Shown here: piece after piece, positions 29,826 through 31,856 of the stretch
How positions within the stretch are numbered: position 1 is the stretch's first letter
Layout: each line of letters starts with the position of its first letter
Source of the DNA: Azonexus sp.
GTDB lineage: Bacteria > Pseudomonadota > Gammaproteobacteria > Burkholderiales > Rhodocyclaceae
Assembly (NCBI RefSeq): GCF_030824335.1
Contig: NZ_JAVBXX010000010.1
Location: 62,001 to 126,000, forward strand
Direction of reading: 5' to 3'
Length of the DNA: 64,000 bases
Notes under the pieces: generated by a model
The model's database searches: none
Told to the model about the DNA's origin: nothing
The model's input: only the letters and a program-made list of their open reading frames with translations
Made by a program: the position numbers and the translations under genes

Positions 29826-29914
29826 ACTCGAGCCTAAAAAGCTGTTAGCCTAAAGGGCGTAACCTTAATCGACACCATCGGAGCGGTCAAGGTTTCTACG
29901 CGCAAAACGCAATT

Positions 29915-29943: not shown

Positions 29944-30501
29944 CTGTCCTCGCCGCGTCAGCTCTCCACATTTCTCGAAAACGTCGAACGCCGTGCCTTC
30001 AAGCAGGCCATGTATGCAGTACGCGACGAAGATGCTGCACTTGATATCGTTCAGGACTCGATGATGAAACTCGCCGAGAAATACGGCGATCGTCCGGAAG
30101 AAGAATTTCCGATGCTATTCCAACGCATCCTGCAAAACACCATCCGTGACTACTATCGACGCAGCAAGGTACGTTCAATGTGGACAACGCTGCTCTCGGC
30201 ATTTTCCTCAGAGGAAGATCAGGACCCGCTGGAAATGCTGCAGTCCTTGCAAACACACGAAGGCTCCAGCGCGCCCGAGAGCGAACTTCAGACCAGCCAG
30301 ACGCTAACAATCATCGAGAACGAAATAAAAAAACTCCCCGCACGTCAACGGGAAGCTTTCATCATGCGTTATTGGGAAGATATGGATGTCGCTGAAACCG
30401 CAAACGCTATGGGCTGCTCCGAAGGAAGCGTAAAAACGCATTGTTCTCGCGCAACGCACACACTGGCATCCGCGCTTTTGGCCAAAGGAATTTCGCTATG
30501 A
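29944..30501 (+). CDS. ECF-like RNA polymerase sigma factor
   Basis: About 185 residues. Region 2 is visible in FLENVERRAFKQAMYAVRDE, DIVQDSMMKLAEKYG and the RILQNTIRDYYRR core, and region 4 in KKLPARQREAFIMRYWEDM, VAETANAMGCSEGSVKTHCSRA. The first ATG (30010) lies inside region 2 and would remove conserved residues. The frame is open from 29917 with no ATG, GTG or TTG; CTG at 29944 or ATT at 29938 are the only plausible starts, so the start is uncertain. It is coupled to the DUF3619 gene by ATGA and opens a four-gene cluster. The target promoters are unknown. Confidence 0.85.
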   Translation: MSSPRQLSTFLENVERRAFKQAMYAVRDEDAALDIVQDSMMKLAEKYGDRPEEEFPMLFQRILQNTIRDYYRRSKVRSMWTTLLSAFSSEEDQDPLEMLQSLQTHEGSSAPESELQTSQTLTIIENEIKKLPARQREAFIMRYWEDMDVAETANAMGCSEGSVKTHCSRATHTLASALLAKGISL

Positions 30502-30899
30502 ACGAAGAAAGACAAGCGTATCGAATCCGGCAATTGCTCAATTACGGCCTGCAAGATATATCCAGGACCTCAATACGCCGCATGGAAGCCGCGCGCCACA
30601 TGGCTCTCTCGCGCCAGAAGGCACCGACAGCCATACTGAGCATCGCCGGATTTGGCAGCATGGAGACCCAGATAATCTCGCGGGGAAGCAACGGCAAGCA
30701 GAATTCTGGATTCAAACAAATACTGGCCATTTGCGCCCTGCTTTTTGGCATGTGGCTATCCTTCAATTGGCACAGCGACCAATATGTTGCCGAAGTAGAA
30801 GCCGTCGATAGCGCATTGCTGACCGACGACCTGCCACCCGATGTTTTTCTGGATACCGAATTTCTCGAATGGCTAAAAGACGACACATCGGAGGAGTAG
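30498..30899 (+). CDS. DUF3619 family single-pass membrane protein
   Basis: A 133-residue protein with a helical cytosolic N-terminus (RQAYRIRQLLNYGLQDIS...), one membrane segment (ILAICALLFGMWLSFNW, about residues 76-92) and a periplasmic acidic tail ending DTEFLEWLKDD. This matches DUF3619, whose role is unassigned. Its ATG overlaps the sigma factor stop. The topology (cytosolic N-terminus, one membrane pass) and position are what one expects of an anti-sigma factor, but this is inference; no zinc-type anti-sigma motif is present. Confidence 0.8.
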   Translation: MNEERQAYRIRQLLNYGLQDISRTSIRRMEAARHMALSRQKAPTAILSIAGFGSMETQIISRGSNGKQNSGFKQILAICALLFGMWLSFNWHSDQYVAEVEAVDSALLTDDLPPDVFLDTEFLEWLKDDTSEE

Positions 30900-31381
30900 C
30901 AATCGTATTGGTACTGGCCTGCGCAATCACTGCACAAGCCACACCGCCTACCACCGCAATTCTGGGAACACCACCCCAACCGGAGTGGACCGCATTATCT
31001 GCAAGCCAGAAAAAAACACTGGCACCGCTCGCCAAAGACTGGAACGGCATGGAAAACATTCGCCGAAAACAGTGGCTCAGTACCGCCGAACGCTATCCAG
31101 CAATGAGCGAAACCGAAAAAGAACGGGTGCAAAAGCGCATGCAAGACTGGGCAAAACTCAGCCCGGAACAACGCGCAAAAGCACGCGACAACTATCGCAA
31201 CATCAACCAACTCCCCAATGACCAAAAAGATTTGATCAAGAAAAAGTGGTCGGCTTACGCAAATTTGCCAGAAGAAGAAAAGCAAGGGGTTCGGGAAAAG
31301 CACAAATCAGCTATTCTTCTCGCCCCGCCACCCTCGCCGGAAGAATCGACGAACGAAGCGCCAAGCTCCGTCAATCAGTAA
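30869..31381 (+). CDS. DUF3106 family exported protein
   Basis: A 170-residue protein with a signal peptide (MAKRRHIGGVAIVLVLACAITAQA) and a helical, charged mature part. It carries repeated short units of the form L-(S/P)-x-(D/E)-(Q/E)-x3 followed by R/K: LSASQKKTL, MSETEKERV, LSPEQRAKA, LPNDQKDLI, LPEEEKQGV. DUF3106 proteins have this character. The pattern recalls the helical periplasmic sensors CnrX, CpxP and Spy, though sequence alone does not prove relatedness. It overlaps the DUF3619 gene by 31 bases. The proline-rich C-terminal tail is likely disordered. Confidence 0.82.
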   Translation: MAKRRHIGGVAIVLVLACAITAQATPPTTAILGTPPQPEWTALSASQKKTLAPLAKDWNGMENIRRKQWLSTAERYPAMSETEKERVQKRMQDWAKLSPEQRAKARDNYRNINQLPNDQKDLIKKKWSAYANLPEEEKQGVREKHKSAILLAPPPSPEESTNEAPSSVNQ

Positions 31382-31397
31382 ACCGGCAATAAAACTC

Positions 31398-31856
31398 ATG
31401 ATTCACGACCCGTCCAGCATTGGTCGCCGCTTAGGCGCCATGCTCTATGAAAGCCTTGTTGTTTTCGCCATCCTGCTTGTCGGATTCATGTTTCCACAAA
31501 TCGTCCTTTCCGGCTTTGGCATGAGCCTGAGCGGGAAAGCCATGTGGCTTCACTTGTTTGTCGTGCTCATGGCCTATTTTGTCTGGTTTTGGTTACACGG
31601 CGGCCAAACGCTCCCGATGAAAACATGGAAACTGAAACTAGTCGATCAAAGCGGGTTGCCACCACGTCCAATGCAAGCCATATTGCGTTATTTTGCAGCA
31701 TGGCCAAGCACACTGCTCTTCGGCGTCGGCATCTTCTGGGCGCTATTTGATCGTGACGGCCAATTTCTGCACGACAGAATTGCCGGCACAAGGATTATCA
31801 CGGAGCTCGCTTCACCGCCGCTCAACCCACCAGATCATGACACCGGCCGCCAATAA
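31398..31856 (+). CDS. RDD family membrane protein
   Basis: A 152-residue protein with the RDD pattern: an Arg-rich N-terminal motif (SIGRRLGAMLYESLVV), three to four hydrophobic segments, and an Asp-containing C-terminal motif (LFDRDGQFLHDRIAGTRII). RDD proteins are poorly understood; some are linked to ion transport. It follows the DUF3106 gene by 16 bases. Its last 45 bases overlap lptG on the other strand. Confidence 0.85.
   Translation: MIHDPSSIGRRLGAMLYESLVVFAILLVGFMFPQIVLSGFGMSLSGKAMWLHLFVVLMAYFVWFWLHGGQTLPMKTWKLKLVDQSGLPPRPMQAILRYFAAWPSTLLFGVGIFWALFDRDGQFLHDRIAGTRIITELASPPLNPPDHDTGRQ

Follow-up and report, generated by a model that had tools for sequence, protein, structure and literature searches.

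A putative ECF sigma/anti-sigma module of DUF3619 and DUF3106 proteins whose sigma gene appears to start at a conserved CTG

The window, a 64,000-nucleotide stretch of an Azonexus sp. genome assembled in 44 contigs, carries four consecutive forward-strand genes encoding an ECF sigma factor (29944..30501), a DUF3619 membrane protein (30498..30899), a DUF3106 exported protein (30869..31381) and an RDD membrane protein (31398..31856). The sigma and DUF3619 frames overlap by 4 bases (ATGA), DUF3619 and DUF3106 overlap by 31 bases and a gap of 16 bases separates DUF3106 from RDD, with positions and tight packing agreeing with those of the earlier note. The family identities also stand, each protein scoring above the cut-off of its curated model. 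The sigma factor, 185 amino acids counted from the CTG at 29944, matches NF006550/PRK09047 with 276 bits (cut-off 173) and contains Sigma70_r4_2 (57 bits) and Sigma70_r2 (24.2 bits, cut-off 24), so that it consists of sigma2 and sigma4 only, which defines an ECF factor; the closest sigma factors found are from Dechloromonas/Azonexus, with 81% identity to L084. The gathering cut-offs are exceeded by DUF3619 (PF12279, 87.2 bits against 22.2), DUF3106 (PF11304, 108.8 against 24.3) and RDD (PF06271, 74.4 against 24.1).

The single-pass DUF3619 protein, the proposed anti-sigma factor, has a transmembrane segment placed approximately at 30714..30767 by eye and from the alignment, followed by a conserved tail (30807..30881), predicted to be periplasmic, in which D104, L108, P113 and D119 are invariant among 23 sequences and which closes on an F..WL end. 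DUF3106, a helical protein and the proposed periplasmic partner of DUF3619, begins with a likely signal peptide (30869..30940) recognized by eye, and most loci of the order have the RDD gene in fourth place. Two sigma cysteines, C158 and C167 (GCSEGSVKTHC, in the region of the DNA-binding helix), are invariant in 14 aligned sequences, the second being replaced by Leu in L186 and by Tyr in the A. baumannii sigma factor; redox sensing by sigma itself is possible.

The divergent neighbor of the sigma gene is ilvB in 76 of the 78 named loci whose upstream sequence is long enough to tell, and lptG is found downstream in 40 of the 71 that extend far enough on that side. A sigma70-type promoter read by eye on the minus strand (29862..29890), comprising TTGACC (29885-29890), a 17-nt spacer and TAAGGT (29862-29867), faces ilvB and belongs to the context outside the module; it is conserved and lies within the 118-base intergenic gap upstream of sigma. 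In the Rhodocyclaceae a conserved GGTCAAGG motif forms the -35 element of this promoter on the other strand. Also by eye, sigma70-like -10 elements precede the sigma gene in several families, with TTTGCTAGCAT in the Burkholderiaceae and TATAAT in some Dechloromonas relatives, and no shared ECF promoter, as in ECF-type autoregulation, was seen before sigma.

A survey of 120 genomes drawn from the order (Burkholderiales) gave matches to the sigma factor above its cut-off in 88, to DUF3619 in 85 and to DUF3106 in 87. The sigma factor is present in all 85 genomes with DUF3619, and in 84 of them the two genes lie within 1 kb of each other, which puts the arrangement far beyond chance; the lone genome in which they are not adjacent has its sigma gene divided between two contigs. 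DUF3619 adjoins DUF3106 in 84 of 84 genomes having both, and one genome (G122) has DUF3619 with no DUF3106 match. Three genomes have sigma with no PF12279 hit; a local profile recovers divergent DUF3619 proteins in L167 and L168 and a weak match in L166. All four genes are found in 68 of 80 named loci and only RDD is missing in 9, several of the RDD absences falling at contig ends; of the remainder, two are without DUF3619 and DUF3106, and L146 stops shortly past sigma. The module is therefore seldom broken up within the order. Three genomes of one family (G083, G129 and G173) each have one in-frame stop inside the DUF3619 match, which may reflect decay or a frame effect.

Across the class (Gammaproteobacteria in the GTDB sense) PF12279 matches 23 of 274 genomes, mostly through its N-terminal part, and 21 of the 23 lie outside the order. 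The locus was fetched for 20 of these 21, and sigma, a DUF3619-like gene and DUF3106 follow each other in this order in 19, with L193 as the exception. DUF3106 itself matches 74 of the 274 genomes. In a hand-picked, non-random set of 20 DUF3106 loci with no PF12279 match, the same order with an ECF sigma gene upstream is seen in 18, and L213 and L215 have no such gene within the fetched stretch. The DUF3619-like proteins outside the order share an N-terminal LD..LD..T..RL..AR..A pattern, a transmembrane segment and an acidic tail, and 26 of 31 have an FY.WL-like ending. An alignment of 30 such proteins to 23 DUF3619 proteins with no shared rows gave a whole-length hhalign match with an E value of 3.7e-17, by which the two groups are homologs over their length. 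Outside the order, 21 of 30 loci also have the 4-base overlap with the sigma stop. This shared anatomy points to a class-wide module of ECF sigma factor, anti-sigma factor and periplasmic partner, in which the three roles would be those argued for below.

DUF3619 and DUF3106 are fused into a single open frame in two genomes (G123 and G166, loci L164 and L165) belonging to two species of one genus. The fused protein runs from the N-terminal module through the transmembrane segment and the tail into DUF3106, and because DUF3106 is thus fused behind the transmembrane segment it would lie across the membrane from the N-terminal module, in agreement with the likely signal peptide that the window protein carries. 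The two proteins are also lost together: in L086 and L093 both are gone after sigma, with sigma and RDD retained and an apparent remnant of the DUF3619 start visible in L086. Both loci are contigs of metagenome-assembled genomes, and the loss may reflect faulty assembly.

Correlated evolution was assessed by a mirror-tree comparison of pairwise distances, with species history corrected using ilvB, over 59 loci and over 27 after thinning. The partial r for sigma-DUF3619 is 0.56 in both sets, followed by DUF3619-DUF3106 (0.35, and 0.43 after thinning) and sigma-DUF3106 (0.23 and 0.30). The RDD pairs lie lower, with 0.12 for sigma-RDD (p 0.025) and at most 0.08 for the remaining pairs over 59 loci, and 0.09-0.15 with no p below 0.08 over the thinned set. 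This ranking is the one that a relay would give. A specific link predicted between the DUF3619 tail and DUF3106 is not seen, the tail correlating at 0.15-0.16 with DUF3106 versus 0.35-0.37 with sigma, and the DUF3619 N terminus correlates similarly with sigma (0.47-0.49) and DUF3106 (0.37-0.48). Adjacency in 84 of 85 genomes, fusion, joint loss and correlated evolution together support the anti-sigma position proposed earlier for DUF3619, a periplasmic DUF3106 and a stable module. The RDD protein finds no support as a core part: it has the weakest correlation, and a search of 20 PF12279 stretches outside the order found one weak partial match (L195) and otherwise none. It is best read as an accessory gene added in the order.

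The start of the sigma gene is unusual. Its frame offers no ATG, GTG or TTG before 30010, and the codon at 29944..29946 is CTG, which aligns with the ATG of the Burkholderiaceae/Oxalobacteraceae orthologs. From 163 loci with sigma, 152 have the anchor motif and 60 nt upstream, and the 130 distinct genes kept have aligned start codons of CTG in 83, ATG in 42, TTG in 5 and GTG in none (CTG 61, ATG 13 and TTG 5 when counted by clusters of about 85% identity). CTG needs 6 changes on the tree of these 130 rows compared with 38.9 in shuffles, and the ATG starts form two tree groups, one of 38 rows of the Burkholderiaceae/Oxalobacteraceae type and one of 4 rows (L042, L048, L055 and L163). A strict Shine-Dalgarno core is present 4-11 nt upstream of 56 of the 83 CTG starts, 1 of the 5 TTG starts and none of the 42 ATG starts; as a control, it precedes 104 of 951 other in-frame CTGs within the sigma genes. 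Judged by duplex energy, the CTG is the candidate with the best Shine-Dalgarno pairing in 77 of the 83 CTG genes, and for the 42 ATG genes the ATG is best in 25 and a CTG in 7. For 20 further ECF sigma genes of the order a CTG is best in 2, and for 35 loci outside it in 18, 5 of the 40 there being omitted as having no sigma match of 100 bits. The Shine-Dalgarno sequence of the window's own sigma gene, GAAAGA, is weak. Taken together, these patterns make it look as if sigma is translated from an evolutionarily kept CUG.

The conserved leucine might instead be internal, with translation beginning further upstream or at the in-frame ATT (29938) or ATC (29941) just 5' of the window CTG. This is very unlikely: an ATG, GTG or TTG does occur between the upstream stop and the CTG in 32 of the 83 CTG genes (none in the other 51), but a stop codon stands immediately 5' of the CTG in L044 and L051, the Shine-Dalgarno cores are mostly placed 6-9 nt 5' of the CTG, and wherever the site holds no ATG it holds CTG or TTG (88 of 88) and no other leucine codon. 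With initiation at the CUG, annotations of these sigma genes may often have the wrong 5' end.

DUF3619 is initiated differently. An aaagga sequence (30484..30489) within the Lys-Gly codons of sigma lies 8 nt 5' of its ATG at 30498, and a Shine-Dalgarno core is found at 111 of 127 DUF3619 starts; these are ATG in 115, GTG in 10 and TTG in 2, CTG not being among the choices offered. The 4-base overlap with the sigma stop is found at 72 of 80 CTG loci, 40 of 42 ATG loci and 2 of 5 TTG loci. As sigma appears weakly initiated and DUF3619 has a Shine-Dalgarno sequence, sigma would be scarce relative to its inhibitor. The kept CUG, together with a Shine-Dalgarno core whose presence or absence follows the start codon, offers an unusual and testable case of weak initiation under selection, and no mention of a CUG or CTG start was found among the literature matches listed, which is not proof of its being unpublished. 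One might go further and regard the CUG as a regulatory device that ties sigma synthesis to the fidelity of initiation (IF3, ribosome state), with translational stress and an envelope signal jointly setting the sigma/anti-sigma ratio in a class-wide module; this is an improbable extension.

The reading preferred for the module, to which we give a probability of about three in four, is an ECF sigma/anti-sigma relay with DUF3619 as anti-sigma factor, DUF3106 as its partner in the periplasm, sigma sparingly made and RDD accessory. From the families, gene order, fusion, joint loss, correlated evolution and start-codon pattern, we infer its binding, inhibition, signal and stoichiometry as follows. 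The N-terminal helices of DUF3619 would bind sigma at the membrane and prevent it from reaching RNA polymerase, and the short acidic tail together with DUF3106 would report on the periplasm, DUF3106 acting as a co-inhibitor that guards DUF3619 or else as the sensor. An envelope signal would free sigma, the best guess, from relatives only, being copper or thiol/disulfide stress. Sigma would start at CUG, mostly with a Shine-Dalgarno sequence, or in two other groups at AUG with none, and DUF3619 would start mostly by the 4-base overlap with a Shine-Dalgarno sequence, so that the inhibitor should stay in excess.

Several observations count against the relay. An AlphaFold model of sigma and DUF3619, computed on a joined frame (the L163 read-through) with 47 unpaired rows, is confident in sigma2 but gives pLDDT of about 34-69 for DUF3619 and a pTM of 0.41; at this confidence no sigma contact is predicted, and the model neither shows nor excludes one. 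A DUF3619 profile found nothing in the PDB below an E value of 0.9, and DUF3619 and seven scanned relatives match no Pfam anti-sigma domain, be it of the RseA, class I (ASDI) or zinc type. The tail of DUF3619 has no specific correlation with DUF3106, the RDD-sigma correlation (0.12) is weak yet not nil, the middle protein of the A. baumannii locus described below is only weakly similar, and sigma survives in L086 and L093 with DUF3619 gone.

The part played by DUF3106 divides the possibilities further. It may be a co-anti-sigma factor that shields DUF3619 from proteolysis as RseB does for RseA, with another protein bringing the signal, and this branch of the relay reading is tenable at somewhat less than even odds: joint loss, fusion and correlated evolution favor it, as does the reported anti-SigAb activity of AabB, whereas a DUF3106 correlation no stronger for the DUF3619 tail speaks against it. 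A metal sensor of the CnrYXH kind, in which a metal-binding DUF3106 like CnrX makes the membrane protein release sigma, has the same three-part logic and fits both the copper response reported for the A. baumannii relative and the link of C. metallidurans RpoQ and RpoR with the homeostasis of copper and thiols. It is nevertheless unlikely, and the likeness to CnrX, CpxP and Spy sensors suggested earlier finds no support. The predicted model of the window DUF3106 is confident, with 103 of 170 residues at a pLDDT of at least 90 and five main helices of about 16 residues each, but against the PDB Foldseek returned no match below an E value of 3 and a second look none above a Z score of 3.9, a null result for a predicted model that is proof neither of a new fold nor of unlikeness to CnrX. 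The invariant and nearly invariant DUF3106 residues in 46 sequences include no Cys or His, and the gene order, cnrYXH in the known system, differs from that of the window. Least likely of all, DUF3619 and DUF3106 could be envelope proteins that serve some other function and only accompany the sigma gene, no regulon being known and the promoters seen by eye before sigma being sigma70-like rather than ECF. Against this stand the conservation of the trio throughout the class and a rate correlation that is far lower for RDD, a gene lying just as near.

Compared with known systems, the proposed relay resembles RpoE-RseA-RseB, where a single-pass anti-sigma factor has a periplasmic co-inhibitor, and differs in that DUF3619 and the seven relatives match neither the RseA nor any other anti-sigma Pfam model. 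CnrH-CnrY-CnrX likewise combines a sigma factor, a minimal membrane anti-sigma factor and a helical partner in the periplasm; CnrH is a weak hit of the sigma profile (E 3e-4), and no similarity of DUF3619 or DUF3106 to solved proteins was found. For the start codon the comparison is with infC and pcnB, which also have evolutionarily kept non-AUG starts, AUU there as opposed to the CUG of an alternative sigma gene here. In C. metallidurans, RpoR may be an ortholog of the window sigma, as its ilv neighbors would suggest, and RpoR and RpoQ-RsqA share with it the character of betaproteobacterial ECF sigma factors. RpoQ and RpoR are reported to act in thiol and copper homeostasis. RpoR is Rmet_0910 in a table of PMC11647585, where rpoR has an antisense signal (664) exceeding the sense signal (378), unlike the other ECF sigma genes in the part of the table covered here. 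The parts consulted of PMC7406223, PMC2864759, PMC2194791, PMC8103513 and PMC3384475 contain nothing on this locus. A literature search found no mention of DUF3619 or DUF3106.

A trio with overlapping genes in the same order is present in A. baumannii CP040041.1 (L244), where the sigma gene, scoring 126 bits against the sigma profile of the order, is followed by genes for a 106-amino acid membrane protein and DUF3106. It was met in a plasmid scan that served only for finding named relatives; the 561-kb record is labeled a plasmid, and tolB and pal, the neighbors of the trio, look chromosomal. The middle protein shows weak similarity to L204 (28% over 74 amino acids) with no PF12279 hit, and matches the DUF3619-type A6 profile with an E value of 2e-6 in a search of 3 proteins. 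We take this trio to be SigAb-AabA-AabB, the middle gene presumably being aabA and the DUF3106 gene aabB. SigAb was reportedly named in mBio in 2024, with anti-SigAb activity for aabA and aabB and copper stress as an inducer, and is said to be Acinetobacter-specific. With this trio reportedly published already and RpoR a possible ortholog, the word undescribed used in the earlier note is too strong. The A. baumannii locus has the ECF sigma factor, small membrane protein and DUF3106 of the window in the same order; it differs in a middle protein too divergent for PF12279, in a sigma gene whose start candidates with a Shine-Dalgarno sequence are ATG and in having no ilv or RDD gene seen within 8.5 kb. 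The trio in many genomes of the class contradicts the Acinetobacter-specific label, so that the comparison widens that system and suggests a likely job, as anti-sigma factor and periplasmic partner, for two unnamed families in many genomes of one large class.
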